DNA from: Polycladidibacter stylochi
GTDB taxonomy: Bacteria; Pseudomonadota; Alphaproteobacteria; Rhizobiales; Stappiaceae
DNA: 64,000 nt
Assembly: GCF_001562055.1 (NCBI RefSeq)
Contig: NZ_LLWE01000024.1
Location: 1 to 64,000, forward strand
Direction: 5' to 3'
Part shown: positions 663 to 63,475 of the stretch, one piece after another
Layout: each line of letters opens with the position of its first letter
Numbering within the stretch: the stretch's first letter is position 1
Notes under the pieces: generated by a model
Seen by the model: only the letters and a program-made list of their open reading frames with translations
Told to the model about the DNA's origin: nothing
Databases searched by the model: none
Translations under genes and position numbers: made by a program

Positions 663-3245
663 TTACATTGTTGTAAAGGTCAATTGGCCATCCTGAATTG
701 TGCTTTCGACTTTTTGCCCCTCGATTATTTCCCCCCCCAAGATTAACTCAGCTAGCGGATCTTGCACCTGCTTTTGGATCACCCGTTTCAATGGTCGTGC
801 GCCATAGGCTGGATCATAGCCTTTGTCTGCCAGCCAGTTTATGGCAGCATCATTCAGATCAAGCTGAATACCACGATCATCCAGCAGCTTTTGCAAGCGC
901 TTCAATTGTACATGCACAATCGCCGACATCTGCTCTCGTTGCAAACGGTGGAAGAGTATGATCTCGTCTAGACGATTTAAGAATTCAGGCCTGAAGTGGT
1001 TGCGCACTGCCGCCATAACCGGCTCACGTACCGCGTCAACACCTTGCCCCTCTTCCTGAAGAACAAGAAATTCTGCCCCCAGGTTGGAAGTTAAAATGAT
1101 CAGTGTATTGCGAAAGTCGACGGTACGCCCTTGTCCATCGGTCAAGCGCCCTTCATCAAGCACTTGCAGCAGAACGTTAAAGACATCCGAATGCGCTTTC
1201 TCGATTTCATCGAACAACACAACCTGATAGGGGCGACGACGAACAGCCTCGGTTAATGCCCCCCCTTCCTCGTAGCCCACATAACCGGGAGGAGCTCCGA
1301 TCAAACGGGCGACACTATGCTTTTCCATGAACTCGGACATGTCTATGCGCACCATAGCTGTCTCGTCATCAAACAGATAAGACGCCAGCGATTTGGTCAG
1401 CTCGGTCTTACCCACGCCGGTAGGACCTAAGAACAAAAATGAGCCAATTGGACGGTTCGGGTCCTGCAAACCGGCACGCGAACGTCGCACTGCGGTAGAT
1501 ACAGCACTCACCGCTTCGGCTTGACCAATGACCCGCTTACCGATTTCCTCTTCCATCCGCAGCAGCTTTTCACGCTCACCTTCCAGCATTTTATCAATCG
1601 GGATACCGGTCCAGCGAGAAACCACCTGTGCAATACCTTCACTCTCAACGGTTTCATTGACCATCGTCGCTGTGTCGTCTTCATCTAAAGCTTCTGCAGC
1701 CGTTATTTTGCGCTCTAAATCGGGAATAACACCATAGGCAAGCTCGCCTGCCTTGGCCAAATCACCACGACGTTGCGCTTGCTCCAATGCAATACGTGCC
1801 TCATCAAGCTGCTCTTTTAGCTTTTGCTCCGAACTCAGCTTGTCTTTTTCGCCTTGCCAGCGCTGGGTCAGTGCCTGCGATTGTTCTTCCAAATCACTGA
1901 GTTCGATTTCCAGACGATTAAGCCGCTCCTTTGTGGCATCATCACTTTCTTTCTTTAACGCTTCACGCTCGATCTTCAGCTGGATAATGCGGCGATCCAA
2001 CTCGTCCAGCTCTTCCGGCTTTGAATCCACCTGCATGCGCAAACGGCTTGCCGCTTCGTCGACCAAATCAATGGCTTTATCAGGTAGAAAACGATCGGTG
2101 ATATAGCGATCAGAAAGCGTCGCCGCAGCGACAATAGCACTATCGGAAATACGCACCCCATGGTGCAGCTCGTACTTTTCTTTAATGCCGCGCAAAATAG
2201 AAATAGTGTCTTCCACACTGGGCTGGCTGACAAACACCGGTTGGAAACGCCGCGCCAATGCTGGATCTTTCTCCACATGCTTGCGATATTCATCCAGCGT
2301 TGTGGCACCCACACAGTGCAGTTCACCACGCGCCAAGGCAGGCTTGAGCAGGTTTGAGGCATCCATGGCACCGTCAGACTTACCTGCCCCAACCAAAGTG
2401 TGCATCTCGTCAATAAACAGCACAATGCCACCTTCGGCCGCTTGCACCTCGTTCAAAACACCCTTTAGGCGCTCTTCAAACTCACCACGATATTTGGCAC
2501 CAGCAATCAATGCACCCATATCCAATGCAAGTAGCTGTTTATCACGTAATGATTCCGGCACATCTCCATTAACAATACGCAGGGCAAGGCCTTCAGCAAT
2601 GGCCGTTTTACCAACACCGGGTTCACCAATGAGGACAGGGTTGTTTTTCGTGCGACGTGACAAAACTTGTATGGCGCGACGGATTTCTTCATCACGGCCA
2701 ATAACCGGGTCCAACTTGCCATCACGCGCCGCCTGTGTGAGGTCCTGCGCGTATTTCTTCAACGCATCATACTGGTTTTCGGCTGATGCAGAATCAGCTG
2801 TGCGCCCTTTACGCAATGCGTTAATTGCCTCGTTCAAACCACTAGCGTTTACACCAGCTTGTGCCAAAGCTTTTCCAGCCTTGCTACTTTTATCCATGCA
2901 TAACGCCAGGAGTAACCGCTCAACTGTGACAAAAGAGTCCCCCGCCTTATCGGCGATTTTCTCAGCCTGTTCAAAGAGGCGTGCTGTTTCTGCGGCCAGA
3001 TAGAGCTGGCCATTGCCACCAGAAACCTGCGGCATTGCAGCCAAGTCGGCTTCCACCTGTAAGCGTACATCCTGCGTGCGGCCGCCGGAGCGCTCAATCA
3101 GACCACTACACAGTCCTTCTTTGTCATCCAGTAAAACCTTAAGGATGTGCTCTGGCGTAAATTGTTGATGGTTTTGACCAATGGCATAAGTTTGAGCCGA
3201 CTGGATAAAGCCACGCGCACGTTCTGTATACTTTTCAATATTCAT
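663..3245 (-). CDS. clpB: ATP-dependent disaggregase ClpB
   Basis: 860 aa, the normal length for ClpB. It is the hexameric AAA+ chaperone that threads aggregated proteins through its pore together with the DnaK system in the cytoplasm. Visible in order: Clp N-terminal repeats (about 1-150); first AAA domain with Walker A GEPGVGKT near 205 and the pore motif [10 protein letters not shown]; a charged heptad-rich coiled-coil middle domain (about 410-525); second AAA domain with Walker A GPTGVGKT near 610 and pore loop PPGYVGYE. The ATG at 3245 has AGGAG at proper spacing. In many Rhizobiales clpB follows the DUF4167 gene; here it lies beside an rRNA operon, so it has been moved. I could not see a convincing heat-shock (RpoH) promoter upstream. 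Confidence 0.97.
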
Positions 3246-16472: not shown

Positions 16473-17244
16473 ATGCTGGCGTTTGTCGTGCCCGCCTTCC
16501 GCCTGCTGTCTTTGCTTTTGCTGCGGTACTTGCTGTGCGACGTGGCCGTTTGACATTGCTGCTTACGCTTGCAGCAGTTACTTCAGTTGCAGCTTCAGGG
16601 GTAGAACTCACATCAACAGCAATAGTATTCTCGTCCTTTACAGCAATAGAGGCCTTGCGTGGCGCAGGTTTAGTGCTCACCTGCTTTTGCATTGGAGCCT
16701 TCGTTATAGGACTGACATCCTCGTCCTTTTTTGCAGCAACAGTTTTGCTAATTTCCTGAGTTTTTTTTACCCGAGCCGTTCGCTTCGGTTTCTCATAGCT
16801 GTGCTCTCCTGGATGCAAATTATCTTTGTCCCGCTCTGACAATTCTTTGAAAGCACGGGCGCACTCTTGTGCTGTATGCTCATTTGTTTCGACACAGCCA
16901 GATAAACCACAAAGCATTTGTCCGGCTGCTTCGCTGCCATATTCTTGATAGTCAGTTAGCGCATTACCCATAAACTCAGAGGTTAAACGTCCCATTTCTG
17001 GGCCATTCGGAAACGCCATTAATCGTGTAAAAAGTTCGAACTGCGCCTGACAACGTTTTTGGACGAACGTTAAATGCTGTGCCAACAGATCATGGCCAGT
17101 TGAAAACCAGTCTTTTTGGCTTACCGCCATATGTTGCAAGCCAGTTCCATTAAGCCTGTCGAACTCCTCGGCCCAGTACCAAGCCTGCGAAGTTTGCTCC
17201 CAACTATCAGTTGACCAATTAAAGTGATTGCCTTCCTTGCTCAT
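16471..17244 (-). CDS. Phasin-like protein with basic histone-like tail
   Basis: 257 aa with a very strong ribosome binding site (GGGAGGAGG). Residues 1-140 are an amphipathic, Trp/Phe/Gln-rich helical region of phasin type (TGHDLLAQHLTFVQKRCQAQFELF), suited to coat polyhydroxyalkanoate granules. Residues about 150-257 are a low-complexity Lys/Arg/Ala/Thr/Val tail with KPKRTARVKK and KRPRRTASTAAKAKTAGGRR, similar in style to AlgP/PhaF histone-H1-like tails that bind DNA. The overall layout and size match Pseudomonas PhaF, although I cannot show homology of the N-terminus. A palindromic operator candidate lies upstream. The family call is by pattern and is moderately sure. Confidence 0.65.
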   Translation of the reverse strand: MSKEGNHFNWSTDSWEQTSQAWYWAEEFDRLNGTGLQHMAVSQKDWFSTGHDLLAQHLTFVQKRCQAQFELFTRLMAFPNGPEMGRLTSEFMGNALTDYQEYGSEAAGQMLCGLSGCVETNEHTAQECARAFKELSERDKDNLHPGEHSYEKPKRTARVKKTQEISKTVAAKKDEDVSPITKAPMQKQVSTKPAPRKASIAVKDENTIAVDVSSTPEAATEVTAASVSSNVKRPRRTASTAAKAKTAGGRRARQTPA

Positions 17245-31385: not shown

Positions 31386-33062
31386 ATGACACAAGACACT
31401 CTAGCACCAGCAGATAACAAAATAACGCAGACAAACCTCTACCAACAAGCATTGGACACACTAGATATAGTTGTGACAGTGAGTAAAGAAAAGCTGCGAG
31501 AGCGTATTTGTGTTGCAGGCCGGGTAAGTGCGCAGCAACTAGAACACAACCAACAACAGGCCCATGCTCTGGCATGGCTCGCCACCTATGTGAGTGCACT
31601 GCACCAACTCGCCGCTTACCGACAAAACCTGATAGAAAACGGCAATCTTTCCGAATTTGAAGACAATTTGATCCGTCTTGGCTTTGCCGAGTACCTGACA
31701 CAAATCTTTGCCGGTATTCCCATGAGCCAGCTGGAATTTGCCCGCTTGGAAAGCCTTGGTCACAGCCCGAAAGATATAGCGGGCTACAAGCAAGGGGCGA
31801 TTGAACAACTCATTGCGCAGGCCAATGACGCTTCCTTGTATGCTGCAATCGCACAAGAGTTGGAACACCGAACCGATACCCCAACAATCGCCACCTCCGG
31901 TCTTGATGAAACCAGCGAGCAAATACGCGAACAAATGCGCCGCTTTGCAGAGGCAGAAGTGGTGCCCCACGCCCACGAATGGCACTTAAACAACGCTTAT
32001 ATTCCTCTGGACGTTATTGAAGCCATGGCCGAATTGGGCGTTTTCTCCCTTACCATTCCCGAGGAGTACGGCGGTTTGGGTCTTGGCAAAACGGCTATGT
32101 GTGTGGTTTCAGAAGAGCTATCTCGTGCTTACATCGGTGTTGGCTCGCTCGGCACGCGCTCGGAAATCGCCGCCGAACTTATTCTGGCCGGTGGTACAGA
32201 GGCACAAAAACAGCACTGGCTTCCGCGCATTGCCAGTGGTGAAATTCTCCCAACCGCTGTCTTTACCGAACCAAATACCGGCTCTGACCTAGCATCACTA
32301 CGCACAAGAGCACAAAAGCAAGGAGACACCTATAGCGTAAACGGCAACAAAACATGGATCACCCACCCTGTGCGCGCTGACATCATGACTCTGCTGGCAC
32401 GCACCAACCCCGATCAAACCGGATACAAGGGTCTTTCCATGTTTATCGCCGAAAAACCGAGAGGCGATGACGATAACCCGTTCCCAGCGGAAGGCATGAG
32501 CGGCGGTGAAATCGAGGTGCTCGGCTACCGTGGCATGAAGGAATACGAAATCGCCTTTGAAGATTTCAAAGTCCCTAGCAAGAACTTACTGGGTGAGGTA
32601 GAAGGCCAAGGCTTCAAACAATTGATGCAAACCTTTGAAGCCGCTCGTATTCAAACCGCTGCACGTGCTGTTGGCGTTGCTCAATCGGCCTTAGAGTCAG
32701 GGTTGCAATACGCCTTGGAGCGTAACCAGTTTGGCAAAGCCATCTACCAATTCCCGCGCGTTGCCAATAAGCTGGTGTTAATGGCTGTTGAACTGCTTTT
32801 GGCTCGCCAGCTCACTTATTTTGCTGCCAACGAGAAAGACCAGGAGCACCGCTGCGATTTGGAAGCGGGCATGGCCAAACTGTTGGCCGCCAAAGTGGCA
32901 TGGTCTTGTGCAGACAATGCCTTGCAGATACATGGTGGCAACGGCTTCGCTCTTGAGTATCCGGTATCGCGCTTGCTATGCGATGCAAGAATTCTCTCCA
33001 TATTCGAAGGCGCTTCTGAAATTCAGGCGCAAGTTATTGCAAGAAGAATTCTCGAATCATAA
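31386..33062 (+). CDS. mcd: (2S)-Methylsuccinyl-CoA dehydrogenase
   Basis: 558 aa, much longer than an ordinary acyl-CoA dehydrogenase (about 380 aa). The extra N-terminal helical domain of about 170 residues is the hallmark of Mcd. The dehydrogenase part has FTEPNTGSDLASLRT (FAD and substrate), TWITHPVRADIMTLLART, GGEIEVLGYRGMKEYE and the terminal FEGASEIQAQVIARRIL with the catalytic Glu. Mcd oxidises methylsuccinyl-CoA to mesaconyl-CoA in the ethylmalonyl-CoA pathway of acetyl-CoA assimilation. Other pathway genes (ccr, ecm, mch, mcl) are not in the window. A strong terminator follows. Confidence 0.88.
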   Translation: MTQDTLAPADNKITQTNLYQQALDTLDIVVTVSKEKLRERICVAGRVSAQQLEHNQQQAHALAWLATYVSALHQLAAYRQNLIENGNLSEFEDNLIRLGFAEYLTQIFAGIPMSQLEFARLESLGHSPKDIAGYKQGAIEQLIAQANDASLYAAIAQELEHRTDTPTIATSGLDETSEQIREQMRRFAEAEVVPHAHEWHLNNAYIPLDVIEAMAELGVFSLTIPEEYGGLGLGKTAMCVVSEELSRAYIGVGSLGTRSEIAAELILAGGTEAQKQHWLPRIASGEILPTAVFTEPNTGSDLASLRTRAQKQGDTYSVNGNKTWITHPVRADIMTLLARTNPDQTGYKGLSMFIAEKPRGDDDNPFPAEGMSGGEIEVLGYRGMKEYEIAFEDFKVPSKNLLGEVEGQGFKQLMQTFEAARIQTAARAVGVAQSALESGLQYALERNQFGKAIYQFPRVANKLVLMAVELLLARQLTYFAANEKDQEHRCDLEAGMAKLLAAKVAWSCADNALQIHGGNGFALEYPVSRLLCDARILSIFEGASEIQAQVIARRILES

Positions 33063-33068
33063 AAACAG

Positions 33069-33098
33069 GGCCGCCATTTAAGTGGCGGCCATTATATT
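33069..33098 (+). terminator. mcd terminator
   Basis: GGCCGCCA-TTTAAG-TGGCGGCC, an 8-bp perfect stem (33069-33090) followed by ATTATATTT. Confidence 0.8.
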
Positions 33099-33304
33099 TA
33101 CCTATGGTTAATAGTTATTCATCGTGTCTACATAATAGATATATACCTATTATATTTGAAGTAATTAGCGACTATAAGTTGACCATAGTAGTTCAGCTAA
33201 GCTCAAATCTACTTGGGACGATTTTATTTTCTTGCAATTTGCATCACCACACACATAATTAATTAAAATTTTATTAAAATTATATTTATTGGTGTGGTGA
33301 CCAA

Positions 33305-33625
33305 ATGGCGAAAACGAGTTTACTGCTACTATCAGCGACAGCTCTTACACTTTTGTTGGCTGTATCCTCAAGTGCATATGCCTACAAACTCGTGCCATGG
33401 CAAAGGGTCAAAAATGGCCTTGTGCAACTACCAGCTCCTGAAAACACCCTGAAGGAATACAAGATAAAGTCACGCTTACACCCCTTGTCGCCAACCAGTA
33501 GGCTATTGAGCTTTAAAAACAAGCCCAAACAGAAAAAACTACAAAAATGGCCAGCATTAACAAGTAAGCCTGGGCTTATTCCCATGCCGATAAAAACCAG
33601 CAGAGCCTATAAAGTAGAAATCTAA
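33305..33625 (+). CDS. Small secreted basic protein of unknown function
   Basis: 106 aa. Residues 1-26 form a signal peptide (SLLLLSATALTLLLAVSSSAYA, cleavage AYA|YK). The mature part of about 80 residues is rich in Lys, Pro and Leu with no Cys and is strongly basic. No family is recognised. It is preceded by about 200 AT-rich bases and stands alone. The clear signal peptide is the main reason to accept the gene; the ribosome binding site is weak. Confidence 0.55.
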   Translation: MAKTSLLLLSATALTLLLAVSSSAYAYKLVPWQRVKNGLVQLPAPENTLKEYKIKSRLHPLSPTSRLLSFKNKPKQKKLQKWPALTSKPGLIPMPIKTSRAYKVEI

Positions 33626-34431: not shown

Positions 34432-35484
34432 TTAGGGACACGGGTTTGTGTACTGAAGGTGGATATCGTTAATGCGTCCTTCAATTTCTGGGGTAATTTT
34501 GAGGCTTGTCGCCCCCATATCGGTTTTCAATTGCTCAAGGGTTGTTGCACCCAGAATAACCGATGTCATGAACGAGCGGCTTTCTGCAAAAGCCAAAGAC
34601 AGAACAGAGGGGTCGACGCCCAATTCCAGCGCCAAATCAAGATAAGCATTAATCGCCGCTTCCGCATGTGGTGTCTCATAGCGCTGCATGCGCTCGAACA
34701 ACACTTTACGCGATCCGGCAGGACGGGCACCATTGCGATACTTGCCCGTCAAGAACCCTTGGGCCAAAGCAGAGTAGGCAAGTAGGCCAACGTCTTCGCG
34801 CAGTGCAACCTCTGAAAGCCCCCCTTCGAACACGCGATTGATGAGAGAATACGCGTTCTGGATCGATGCCACCCGCGGCAGGCCCTTGAACTCAGCCAAC
34901 TTGGCAAATGTCATCGTGCCCCACGGGCTCTCGTTAGAAAGACCCACATGACGGATTTTCCCTTGCTGCACCAACTCTTGCATCACACCCAAGGTTTCTT
35001 CGATAGATGCTTCGTTCTCATAGGGCTTGGGGTCATTCCATATCACCGGCACAGAACCAAACAGCGGTACATTCCGCTCAGGCCAATGGATTTGATAGAG
35101 ATCGATATAATCAGTTTGCAAACGCCGTAAAGAGTTCTCGACCGCTTCAAAAATCTGCGCTCTTGTCAGTGCCGTTGTCGAGCCATCCTCACGAAACCAG
35201 GAAAGCTGCGAACGTCCAACAACCTTGGTTGCCAGCACCACTTTATCGCGATTTCCCTTCCCCTGCATCCATGTGCCAATTATTTCTTCTGTGCGCCCCT
35301 GAGTTTCAGGCTTTGGCGGAATAGAATAAAGCTCAGCCGTATCAACAAGATTAATCCCGTTCTCGAAAGCGTAATCAAGTTGTGCATGGCCTTCGGCCTC
35401 GGTATTTTGTTCACCAAAAGTCATGGTACCAAGTGAGAGGCTACTCACCTTGATATCGGTGCGTCCCAACTGACGATAATCCAT
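34432..35484 (-). CDS. NADPH-dependent aldo-keto reductase, Tas-like
   Basis: 350 aa from the ATG at 35484; a TTG nine bases upstream is a poorer start. AKR TIM barrel with tetrad D48, Y53, K87 and H133 (LVDTAELYS, LATKVVG, YQIHWPERN). The pattern PKPETQGRTEEIIG is typical of the Tas/YajO-like group. It reduces aldehydes or ketones in the cytoplasm; the physiological substrate is unknown. Confidence 0.92.
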   Translation of the reverse strand: MDYRQLGRTDIKVSSLSLGTMTFGEQNTEAEGHAQLDYAFENGINLVDTAELYSIPPKPETQGRTEEIIGTWMQGKGNRDKVVLATKVVGRSQLSWFREDGSTTALTRAQIFEAVENSLRRLQTDYIDLYQIHWPERNVPLFGSVPVIWNDPKPYENEASIEETLGVMQELVQQGKIRHVGLSNESPWGTMTFAKLAEFKGLPRVASIQNAYSLINRVFEGGLSEVALREDVGLLAYSALAQGFLTGKYRNGARPAGSRKVLFERMQRYETPHAEAAINAYLDLALELGVDPSVLSLAFAESRSFMTSVILGATTLEQLKTDMGATSLKITPEIEGRINDIHLQYTNPCP

Positions 35485-60341: not shown

Positions 60342-60638
60342 ATGACAAGAGTAGTAAAAGTTGAAGAGCGCCAGAGAGGCGTTTTTGGGAAAATCATCAA
60401 ATGGTTATTTATAATTTTTAATGTATTGATGCTAACCTGGCTTGGGTCCTATTGGATGGATCTAGGTGATATGAGCCAAAATCTGTCAAATGATTTTGAG
60501 CGTGCTAGCCTTGGTATTGGCGGAACTATTGGTACAGGTCTTGTTCTATCCGTCTGGCTATTTGGTGATCTTTTCTTAGGTCTGTTTGTCTTGCTAACAC
60601 GCGGTAAGAAAGTCACCATTGAAAAAACCATCGATTAA
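60342..60638 (+). CDS. Two-helix membrane protein of unknown function
   Basis: 98 aa from the ATG at 60342; a TTG at 60312 would add ten residues. A basic start MTRVVKVEERQRGVFGK is followed by two membrane helices (about 20-38 and 62-88) and a basic end TRGKKVTIEK. Similar small proteins beginning VKVEERKRG are remembered in alphaproteobacteria, without known function. The ribosome binding site is weak. A terminator follows. Confidence 0.7.
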   Translation: MTRVVKVEERQRGVFGKIIKWLFIIFNVLMLTWLGSYWMDLGDMSQNLSNDFERASLGIGGTIGTGLVLSVWLFGDLFLGLFVLLTRGKKVTIEKTID

Positions 60639-60653
60639 TCGGGATGGTCATCA

Positions 60654-60682
60654 GAAAGGGTAGATTTTTACCCTTTCTTTCC
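60654..60682 (+). terminator. Terminator after the two-helix protein gene
   Basis: GAAAGGGTA-GATTTT-TACCCTTTC, a 9-bp perfect stem followed by TTTCCTCT. Confidence 0.85.
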
Positions 60683-61031
60683 TCTGGTATTATTATTAAT
60701 TACTCTGCAGCACTCTAAAGTGCTCAGCGATTTCATTAATCATCGACGCACTATTATCACGCCTCAAATTCTGACCGTTACATCTCAAAGACCAAGAAAC
60801 ACCCGAAGAATGGGGTTTTCAATGGCTCATATCAGCAAAGTACTTCTATAAGAAAATTGAAATTTTAAAAACATCGCAAGTAGAATGGCTAACTACAACT
60901 CGTTTCTTGGTACATTCATACCAGCTCGAACAGATGCTATGACAAGAATGGCAGGGCCTATCAAATGTGATGTTATTAGATAATAAGTTAATTCTCTAAG
61001 CTAAGCGTCTACCCACCTGAATGGATAAGAG
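60683..61031. other. Intergenic region, no gene seen
   Basis: About 350 bases, AT-rich, with no frame longer than a few dozen codons and no clear repeats. It lies before the hairpin-rich block. Confidence 0.4.
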
Positions 61032-61300
61032 AAAGTCTCGCTGCTCAAGGGGGGTGGAGAGGCAGCGAGACTTTTTCCAGAGGTCACCCTCTGGTTATGG
61101 GGATACATCATCAGGCGCTCTAGTCGCGCCGGAGTGCATTGGCGTTCAAGAGCAGGGTGGAAGAGACTGACAAAGCATCCTCATATGTAACGCCCACAAG
61201 GCGGAGGAGTAACCTTGCAACATGGTCGTGAAAAGGGAAGACCAGACGCTACACTTTAAGGGGGGCTGCCACTGTGCAAAGACAACCGCCCTCAAAGTTC
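61032..61300. ncRNA. Candidate structured RNA or structured 3' UTR of kbaZ
   Basis: A 270-base GC-richer block between AT-rich flanks contains a row of possible helices: 61032-61044/61062-61074 (13 bp, perfect), 61077-61083/61088-61094 (7 bp), 61114-61118/61126-61130 (5), 61141-61146/61189-61194 (6) enclosing 61154-61159/61176-61181 (6), 61197-61201/61213-61217 (5), 61223-61227/61240-61244 (5) and 61261-61266/61288-61293 (6). The first stem has T-rich tails on both strands (TTTTT on plus, TTTCTCTT on minus). Strand is not settled; on the minus strand it would be the kbaZ 3' end. It matches no RNA family I know. Confidence 0.4.
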
Positions 61301-61308
61301 AGTAGTAC

Positions 61309-62571
61309 TTAAACCTCTTGGCAACCGTAACGGTAATCCTCAAGGATTTGCTGCACTTTATCTAGCAAGATATTCTGTGCAGTGATTTCTTTACCCGCGT
61401 CTTGCAATCGTGCCCGCTCAAGGCCAGCATATTGGCGCACAAGACTGTCTATCATCGTCGTTTCATTGAGATTTTGCATCAATTTTTCAACGGCGGACTG
61501 CACATCCTCTTGAGGCCAGTAGTAACGGATGCGGTCCGAATTACTGTAGCCGCGCAGTACTTTTTGTGCTGACGCGTTGCCTTGGTAGTAACGCTGCCAT
61601 TGTCCTGGCTCGTCAAGCATGACACGTTCCATTACTGAGCGTAATTGTGAACGCTTCTCAACGGAGACGAGTTCGTCCTCAATCGCAGCAAGAGCAAAAA
61701 GGCCTTCACGTAAAGCAAATGTTAGTGCTGGACCAACTTTTAGAATTGCAAAGTGATCTTCAACCAATTCGCGGAATTTTTCTTTCGGCTGATAGTCGGT
61801 TGAGTGTGCTTCAAATACCAGACCTTTTTGATCAGCAATAAATTCTGCGAGCTCTTTTGCTTTCGGGCGATCATAGGCAATGATGGAAGTGTGGTCGAAG
61901 TCAACACCTGGCTGAACGACAACACCAATAACGCGGGTGAATGCATCTTGCAAACCGCGAGCTTCAAATGCTTTACGGTGTAACTCAATCGTTTCTTTAA
62001 CATCAGGTACTTTAGAAATCTGAATACCTGTTAGGCCGTCAGTCTCGCCACCTGGAACGGGAACTTCAGTACCCACAATGTAAAGTGGCTTTTCACCTTC
62101 AGTACAAGCTTCCTCAGCTGCAACGCACATATCGGCCGCGCGCTCAGCAACAACAGCGGGGTCTAGCGGGTCAGTTTCGCCCAATACCGCCATAGAGGCG
62201 TCAAGGTGGATTTTACGGAAACCGGCCTTAACGTAATCGGCAACCAGTGTGCAAGATAGCTGCATGGCTTCTTCGGGTGTTTTGTCGCGCCAAGTGTTTG
62301 GACCCAAATGGTCGCCACCGAGGCAAATACGCTCACGCGGAAAACCGATTTTATCGGCAATAGCGAATACGAATTCGCGGAAGTCGACGGGCTTCATGCC
62401 AGTATAGCCACCAAACTGGTTTACCTGGTTGGAGGTGGCCTCAATAAGCACCGTACGATCTGTTTCTAGATCAAAACGCAATGCTGCTTCAATAACCAAT
62501 GGAGAAGCGGAGCAGACGGAGCAGATACCAGCTGGTAAGCCTTTATCTTGCTTTTCAATAATCGTTTTCAT
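61309..62571 (-). CDS. kbaZ: D-tagatose-bisphosphate aldolase, class II, accessory subunit KbaZ/GatZ
   Basis: 420 aa from the ATG at 62571 with GGAGG five bases upstream. The GatZ/KbaZ family is recognised by GICSVCSASPLVIEAAL at the start, LIEATSNQVNQFGGYTGM, GGDHLGPNTW, KIHLDASM, GTEVPVPGGE and VFEAHSTDYQ. It stabilises and activates the class II aldolase KbaY/GatY that splits tagatose-1,6-bisphosphate, or acts as a tagaturonate/tagatose-phosphate enzyme in some bacteria. The catalytic partner is not in the window. Divergent from a sugar kinase gene, suggesting a galactitol, tagatose or amino-sugar pathway. Confidence 0.93.
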   Translation of the reverse strand: MKTIIEKQDKGLPAGICSVCSASPLVIEAALRFDLETDRTVLIEATSNQVNQFGGYTGMKPVDFREFVFAIADKIGFPRERICLGGDHLGPNTWRDKTPEEAMQLSCTLVADYVKAGFRKIHLDASMAVLGETDPLDPAVVAERAADMCVAAEEACTEGEKPLYIVGTEVPVPGGETDGLTGIQISKVPDVKETIELHRKAFEARGLQDAFTRVIGVVVQPGVDFDHTSIIAYDRPKAKELAEFIADQKGLVFEAHSTDYQPKEKFRELVEDHFAILKVGPALTFALREGLFALAAIEDELVSVEKRSQLRSVMERVMLDEPGQWQRYYQGNASAQKVLRGYSNSDRIRYYWPQEDVQSAVEKLMQNLNETTMIDSLVRQYAGLERARLQDAGKEITAQNILLDKVQQILEDYRYGCQEV

Positions 62572-63475
62572 ATGTCCTCCTTCGGGCAATAGAAACCCGT
62601 TGCCAAAGTTGCGGCTTTGGCCTGTGATTTTTAAAGGTGATCAACTGGAATAATGGTTGCTGACAAACAAAAGCTCATTGTGAGACTTGCTGCTTAGCTA
62701 GCGATTTTCTTAGGGCGATCCCATTTACCAAACCTCCCGCAATCCACGCATTCAGCTAGGTGCGAATGAACTTTGTCTGACCTGCAAAATATCTTTCTAC
62801 CCAGAGGGCGAGTATTTGCATTACTGAGCAAGAGTTCTTTAAATGAACAATTACTCAGCTATGGGGCATAAATTTACACTGAATGTCAACCCAAACTTGC
62901 AATTTCGCCCAAAAAAACCACAAATGCTTAATTTGAATTATCTGACCACGCATTTGATGAAGGCAAATAATATTCTATTATATTGAAATTATTGTATTTT
63001 ATTTGATGTAAGCACTGATACATACACCAATACACAAAGAGTACATATCAAGAAATTTCATCAATAACGATTCTATGAAAATCGATACACAAAAGCTATC
63101 ATATTGTAAAACCTAGCTTTATTGGGAAATAATTATTAATTTAATCGTCGATCATAAAATTCCTTCTTGGCGCGCAAAGAAGTGCGACACAAAAACACAA
63201 TACGGGTTCTCAAATATCAAACTCCTAATAATATTCAGTAATTTCAATGATTTATAATTAACTATCAATAAGACTATTAAAGCCTACCAGTTAATAGCGA
63301 CAAAAAATCAGATAATGAATATTTGCTCTAATAATAAAAATTTGCTAGTAAACTGAATGCTGGCGCTATTTGAAGTGACGGCAGTAAGGCTAAACAGGCC
63401 ACTTGAGCGACTTTTATTCTGGGCAGAAGAAATCGTTTGGGCGCAAGAACAAGCATATGTCAAACAGGAGTTTTC
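62572..63475. other. Long AT-rich divergent regulatory region
   Basis: 904 bases between kbaZ and the kinase gene, very AT-rich from 62910 to 63360. No credible frame is present. It contains the dyad at 62824-62858. The last 100 bases before the kinase are less AT-rich and may be its leader. Confidence 0.5.
62824..62858. promoter_or_regulatory. 35-bp dyad, operator candidate
   Basis: Two nested inverted repeats share one centre (62841): outer CTGAG (62824-62828) with CTCAG (62854-62858), inner GTTC (62834-62837) with GAAC (62845-62848). It lies 253 bases upstream of kbaZ. It looks like a site for a DeoR- or LacI-type sugar regulator, but no regulator gene is visible. Confidence 0.45.

Follow-up and report, generated by a model that had tools for sequence, protein, structure and literature searches.

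The window, the whole stretch of 64,000 nt that was analysed, contains a minus-strand gene whose predicted product is the non-catalytic subunit of a class II D-tagatose-bisphosphate aldolase. The product scored 609 bits against TIGR02810 (cut-off 568.8), 585.1 bits against the GatZ model NF011626 (cut-off 579), and 529.3 bits against the KbaZ model NF012002, under its cut-off of 707. The start codon of this gene, kbaZ (gatZ), was chosen from the sequence, and AAGGAGGA precedes the ATG. The gene and an FGGY-type kinase gene form a divergent pair, and the kinase gene is followed by a galactitol-1-phosphate-dehydrogenase-like gene; the kinase and the dehydrogenase-like gene were both under the curated cut-offs of their models. 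A block flanked by the plus-strand ORF 60342-60638 on one side and the end of kbaZ at 61309 on the other had been described in an earlier note as lacking a normal gene, and apart from kbaZ the ORFs overlapping it were indeed at most 49 aa. As ORF 60342-60638 has its own terminator-like hairpin, it does not need the hairpin of kbaZ. The features are listed below; the 3' UTR is assigned from position, orientation and the minus-strand fold, and the helices from the minimum free energy (MFE) and centroid predictions.

60653-60678, plus strand: terminator-like hairpin of ORF 60342-60638 (inverted repeat of 10 nt, 100%, then T-rich sequence)
61029-61308, minus strand: probable kbaZ 3' UTR, extending from the stop codon through the terminator-type stem
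61029-61077, minus strand: hairpin 5, terminator-type stem with A-tract and U-tract, loop CUCUCCACCCCCCUUGA (inverted repeat)
61077-61094, minus strand: hairpin 4, CCAGAGG-GUGA-CCUCUGG (MFE and centroid)
61098-61185, minus strand: helix 3, interrupted, loop AAUGCACUCC (MFE)
61187-61252, minus strand: helix 2, two-armed, loops UUCCCUUUUCAC and UACUCCUCC (MFE and centroid)
61253-61298, minus strand: hairpin 1, loop UUUGCACAGU, without anti-Shine-Dalgarno character, loop pairing energy -1.2 (MFE and centroid)
61309-62571, minus strand: kbaZ/gatZ coding sequence, ATG at 62571-62569

The adjoining AT-rich intergenic stretch 60616-60911 contained the inverted repeats 60616-60631/60810-60825 and 60791-60800/60902-60911 and resembled decayed coding DNA, with no credible Pfam family in the two frames scanned. 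A transposase remnant in 60690-61030 was considered and rejected, as two of the six frames were scanned and gave no credible Pfam family.

The G+C content was 0.547 in 61025-61174 and in 61100-61249 (150-base steps), compared with 0.36-0.41 in the four steps from 60650 to 61024. The earlier picture of a GC-richer block in AT-rich DNA was therefore right for the left side, but the right-hand neighbour, the kbaZ coding region, had 0.41-0.54 in steps of the same size. The arms of hairpin 5 (61029-61044 and 61062-61077) were 94% complementary with 17 nt between them, and T-rich sequence followed on both strands; the 13-bp helix with T-tails on both strands that had been reported before lies inside this long hairpin. 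Hairpin 5, whose loop was predicted to be mostly unpaired, was unlisted in the terminator scan, which takes loops of 3-8 only. The putative 3' UTR is about 280 nt long and starts directly after the kbaZ stop codon. In its MFE structure there were five hairpin loops of 9-12 nt, partly inside interrupted or branched helices. The minus-strand hairpin loops were UUUGCACAGU, UUCCCUUUUCAC, UACUCCUCC, AAUGCACUCC, and UCCACCCCCCUU, three of the five being clearly pyrimidine-rich. Helix 3 is weakly supported, because most of it disappeared from the centroid structure once the 3' end was omitted, an omission that also removes four of its own bases.

The block had also been called hairpin-rich, and the minus strand bore this out: 61020-61310 folded at -112.2 kcal/mol (z = -5.94), and none of 200 shuffled sequences was as good. 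The signal was, however, strand-biased, with z = -2.25 for the plus strand (5/200 shuffles as good), and after removal of the two 3'-terminal hairpins the 207 nt that were left gave z = -2.30 on the minus strand (2/200) and -0.20 on the plus strand (83/200). This fall in z indicated that the fold of the block is not uniformly remarkable; the exceptional portion is the 3' end, where the terminator-type stem stands beside a short hairpin, and the remainder is modestly structured. When G+C was regressed out over 709 window positions on both strands, the minus strand of the block was at -2.8 sd and the plus strand at -0.8 sd, and a single one of the 1418 strand-windows, 33031 on the plus strand, lay under the block's minus strand. 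This other region, 33031-33330, is intergenic and had, on the plus strand, the most extreme fold of the window for its G+C (-3.2 sd), with a low value on the minus strand as well (-2.7 sd); a 9-bp terminator-like hairpin just past ORF 31386-33062 and AT-rich inverted repeats are found in it.

At gathering scores, Rfam gave no family in the whole window, in agreement with the earlier note, which had seen no match to housekeeping RNAs or riboswitches. A permissive search of 60640-61320 (681 bases) listed four sub-threshold matches. The highest-scoring two, ar14 (RF02344; 17.6 bits, E = 0.61, gathering score 58.8) and CcsR1 (RF02791; 15.7 bits, E = 0.45, gathering score 65.3), both lay on the minus strand. 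These E-values are at chance level. Since both families are anti-Shine-Dalgarno (aSD) sRNAs of alphaproteobacteria, this weak resemblance to the "cuckoo" RNAs, which the earlier note had not mentioned, was nevertheless tested directly, and the tests did not uphold membership. In searches of the own genome, the kbaZ 3' UTR was not listed for RF02344 at E <= 10 and was the better of two CcsR1 matches (E = 0.567); at E <= 10, ar14 matches were found in 9 of 14 control genomes and CcsR1 matches in 12 of 14. At the DNA level the block had just two further matches in its own genome (16-21 nt, E = 0.5-1) and matches in 6 of 100 related genomes (18-36 nt, best E = 0.003), the latter taken as chance, and it had no relatives in plasmids or phages. 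The homology search for aligned copies, suggested in the earlier note, thus returned no alignable homologue from these 100 genomes, plasmids and phages, and the candidate new structured RNA proposed there was not established; a new RNA family is not shown.

According to the accessible parts of two reports (PMC10746234, PMC3927594), cuckoo RNAs carry CCUCCUCCC in unpaired hairpin regions. The alpha-r14 RNA is described there as three hairpins, each with this ultraconserved motif (PMC10746234), and SmelA075 and SmelA099 are described in the same way, with strongly diverging stems and a variable hairpin number noted in addition, and with two to four successive hairpin modules in cuckoo RNAs (PMC3927594). 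RF02344 was detected at E <= 0.01 in 76 of 101 genomes (the own genome and 100 relatives) and in none of 14 controls, and above its cut-off in 42 of the 101. The own genome has one genuine cuckoo RNA, on contig C42 at about 34814-34935 (L061 1501-1622, minus strand), with 33 bits to RF02344, under its cut-off. It consists of successive hairpins whose loops carry CCTCCC and lies downstream of a uvrA-like gene (a name read from the protein sequence alone), and a cuckoo RNA occupies the same uvrA-linked place in six other inspected genomes of the genus (L101-L106). In the 17 loci searched, 41 distinct CCTCCC hairpins were catalogued; 23 hairpins of the genus, a set preselected for CCTCCC, were nearly invariant for UCCUCCCA. 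A single-hairpin model was set aside because the automatic alignment matched loops and not stems, and a covariance model, R1, was built from the seven uvrA-linked loci. Model R1 recovered its member from the own genome as well as each of the six additional genus cuckoo loci supplied (of ten fetched), with E-values of 2.7e-9 to 0.017. In a 118-kb search at E <= 10 it found nothing in the kbaZ 3' UTR of either the own genome or Pseudovibrio hongkongensis, and run unfiltered over 3 kb of the window it reached at best 1.4 bits (E = 2.8) in the block. The exact motif CCUCCUCCC was absent from the minus strand of the block, where the best loop, ACUCCUCCG, agreed at 7 of 9 motif positions, and none of the kbaZ 3' UTR loops contained CCUCCC. 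These tests do not support membership of the kbaZ 3' UTR in the cuckoo (alpha-r14) group. Nor did it show the marks of CcsR1, 65.3 bits and co-transcription with a DUF1127 gene: its host gene is kbaZ, and the sole DUF1127 match of the genome is on contig C34. As would be expected of a 3'-UTR-derived sRNA, it lies on the mRNA strand between a stop codon and a predicted intrinsic terminator.

The kbaZ 3' UTR resembles alpha-r14 (RF02344; NfeR1, SmelA075/SmelA099) in having hairpins with C-rich loops and an alphaproteobacterial host, and in its C-rich terminator loop, as the genus copies carry the motif in the terminator loop too. It differs in that its helices are interrupted or branched instead of forming a row of simple hairpins, and in lacking both a CCUCCC loop and a model match. 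With CcsR1-4 of Rhodobacter sphaeroides, which are produced from the ccaF1 3' UTR with RNase E according to the available text of PMC8625941 and PMC10253847, it shares the 3' UTR origin and a C-rich loop in the last hairpin, whereas its host is kbaZ and not a DUF1127 gene, and its 15.7 bits compare with a gathering score of 65.3. UdsB, UdsC, and UdsH of R. sphaeroides, described in the available part of PMC8625941 as 3'-UTR-derived sRNAs, are likewise structured RNAs between stop codon and terminator; release of such an RNA from the kbaZ 3' UTR is a prediction. The accessible part of a report on a Caulobacter sponge (PMC12559287) offered no closer parallel.

One loop of helix 2 holds CUCCUCC (CTCCTCC at 61203-61209, predicted unpaired probability 0.91-1.0), which recalls the aSD ("cuckoo"/alpha-r14/CcsR) sRNAs. 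About 0.006 occurrences of CUCCUCC are expected per 280 nt of one strand, as calculated from 166 on both strands of 3.68 Mb; genome-wide, these 166 compared with 193 for the reversed control, so that there was no enrichment. The summed pairing of the loops to GGGAGGAGG, the complement of the motif, was equalled in none of 912 strand-windows and in 2 of 400 mononucleotide shuffles, and the best single loop was equalled in 3 of 912 and 7 of 400, respectively. When the same nine purines were permuted, 27 of 36 permutations equalled or beat the true sequence in summed loop pairing, and 14 of 36 did so for the best loop. These counts indicated that the loops are C-rich and not specific for the Shine-Dalgarno (SD) sequence. 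Of 23 start regions picked from the window, 2 paired with the CUCCUCC loop at -9 kcal/mol or better; one belongs to the gene that starts at 17244 and the other to kbaZ.

The sole close kbaZ orthologue in the genome collection was that of P. hongkongensis (NZ_LLWC01000004.1, 78% identity); other relatives were 41-47% identical and were not treated as orthologous. By inspection, the divergent arrangement of kbaZ, kinase and dehydrogenase genes is the same in both species, and a DUF1127 protein is present in both genomes. The P. hongkongensis stop codon is followed by approximately 140 nt ending in their own terminator, shorter than the 280 nt in the window, and this 3' UTR folded at z = -4.82. 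It contained CCUCCUCCC exactly, at one of the 24 places of this motif in that genome (reversed control, 16), and the computed expectation in 140 nt was about 5e-4. If the RNA ends at the terminator, the predicted unpaired probability of the motif was 0.36-0.92, with three of the nine bases at 0.36-0.53; with 17 more bases after the terminator it dropped to 0.04-0.59 for all nine. In this comparison with one close orthologue, the two 3' UTRs gave no alignment. Their positions therefore correspond, and neither shared sequence nor shared structure is shown.

Because the block starts right after the kbaZ stop codon on the minus strand, the most straightforward interpretation is a kbaZ mRNA 3' UTR with an intrinsic terminator. 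We consider this interpretation very probable; it is supported by position, orientation, the terminator-type 3' hairpin, and the strand-biased fold. The earlier note had offered a long structured 3' UTR on the minus strand as one of two options, and this option was supported on the same four points; that it yields a small RNA, as the note added, is plausible. The 3' UTR position, the terminator-type hairpin, and the strand bias of the fold are legible in the sequence; that the block is transcribed, that an RNA is processed and released from it, and that this RNA pairs with and regulates targets is inferred. Transcription of kbaZ would run through the block on the minus strand and stop at the intrinsic terminator, and RNase E would cut between the stop codon and the hairpins, leaving a stable 3'-UTR-derived sRNA of about 80-280 nt. 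The pyrimidine- or C-rich loops, CUCCUCC above all, might then pair with SD regions of other mRNAs, and perhaps with the AAGGAGGA site of kbaZ itself, and such pairing would lower translation of the targets while the sugar pathway is on.

We assign a probability of roughly 0.35 to the whole statement, a kbaZ 3' UTR and terminator from which a regulatory sRNA would be released. Of the readings, release of this sRNA with its C-rich loops holds the greatest interest; a plain 3' UTR has a slightly higher probability. The sRNA is favored by the position after kbaZ, the minus-strand fold, the terminator-type 3' end, the sub-threshold ar14 and CcsR1 matches, the rare CUCCUCC, the loop pairing score, and CCUCCUCCC in the P. 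hongkongensis orthologue, together with the genuine cuckoo RNAs of the genus, the DUF1127 protein in both genomes, and the precedent of CcsR1-4. It is weakened by the permutation control, the missing match to the genus model, the lack of CCUCCC, the 2 of 23 start regions, the partly paired motif in P. hongkongensis, the unalignable 3' UTRs, CTCCTCC without enrichment, and a fold signal mostly in two 3'-terminal hairpins. That last point, with z at -5.94 with these hairpins and -2.30 without, speaks for a plain 3' UTR, in which a terminator and stable hairpins would end transcription and protect the kbaZ mRNA against 3' exonucleases, no trans-acting RNA would be made, and the C-rich loops would be due to chance; so do the loop pairing that is not SD-specific and the absence of a cuckoo model match. 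We give this explanation close to an even chance, although 280 nt exceeds what a terminator needs, and neither CUCCUCC here nor CCUCCUCCC in the orthologue is likely to occur by chance.

The same exact motif in the orthologous 3' UTR, as well as the sub-threshold ar14 and CcsR1 matches, would also be consistent with a cuckoo (alpha-r14/CcsR) sRNA that became established downstream of kbaZ at some point, diverged strongly, and no longer has its canonical loop motifs in this species. The strong divergence of cuckoo stems described in the accessible part of PMC3927594 and the variation of aSD hairpins at 3' ends within the genus, seen behind an outer-membrane-type gene of P. hongkongensis and its counterpart, would fit such an origin. 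We regard it as unlikely, since the genus model found nothing at E <= 10 in 118 kb and 1.4 bits unfiltered, whereas the six other genus cuckoo loci supplied (of ten fetched) all reached E <= 0.017, and since the Rfam E-values are at chance level, with ar14 and CcsR1 matches at E <= 10 in 9 and 12 of the 14 controls. The other option of the earlier note, an independent RNA, fared worse. A plus-strand transcript could start at the promoter-like site 60857-60886 (10 of 12 positions), its sole lead, and use the long hairpin, with its T-run on that strand, as terminator; the region 60600-63460 held 10 promoter-like sites versus 5.5 +/- 2.2 in shuffles. Such sites are, however, common in AT-rich DNA, and beyond the hairpin the plus strand folded like shuffled sequence (z = -0.20), which makes this explanation very improbable.

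Returning to the release of a regulatory sRNA from the kbaZ 3' UTR, we suggest, as a rather doubtful extension, that this 3' UTR might be a fast-turning aSD sRNA site in the genus. In two close species, unrelated hairpins exposing C-rich aSD loops would occupy it, and function would be kept by replacement or convergence and not by homology, coupling tagatose/galactitol catabolism to the translation of other mRNAs. If an aSD-type sRNA is released, a sugar-pathway gene would host a type of regulator that, in the accessible literature on CcsR and NfeR1, is tied to stress and nitrogen, and function would have been kept without kept sequence. If none is released, the locus would be an ordinary structured 3' UTR ending in a strong terminator.

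Elsewhere in the genus, further aSD elements were found. Among the 22 P. hongkongensis places of CCUCCUCCC for which loci were available, two lay in no frame of at least 80 aa, and both belonged to the uvrA-linked cuckoo RNA; two more lay in short frames only (88 and 112 aa), and there too the motif was in a hairpin loop. One of these short-frame places is the aSD element behind the outer-membrane-type gene, where two aSD hairpins and a terminator (L115 1512-1627, minus strand) form the 3' UTR. By inspection, the counterpart of this gene in the window genome (L151, 48% identity) has the same convergent neighbour, and behind it no aSD hairpins and a plain terminator only were found. This difference between species makes the kbaZ case believable and proves nothing about kbaZ. 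Another cuckoo locus, L114 at about 1364-1645 (minus strand), contained TCCTCCC six times, with two of these copies located within the terminator stem-loop. In P. hongkongensis, a long terminator-like hairpin carries CCTCCTCCC in its loop, at C1:410899-410907 (L125 1501-1509, plus strand), with CTCCTCC also at 410766 and 410838 nearby, and this locus is likely a further cuckoo RNA.
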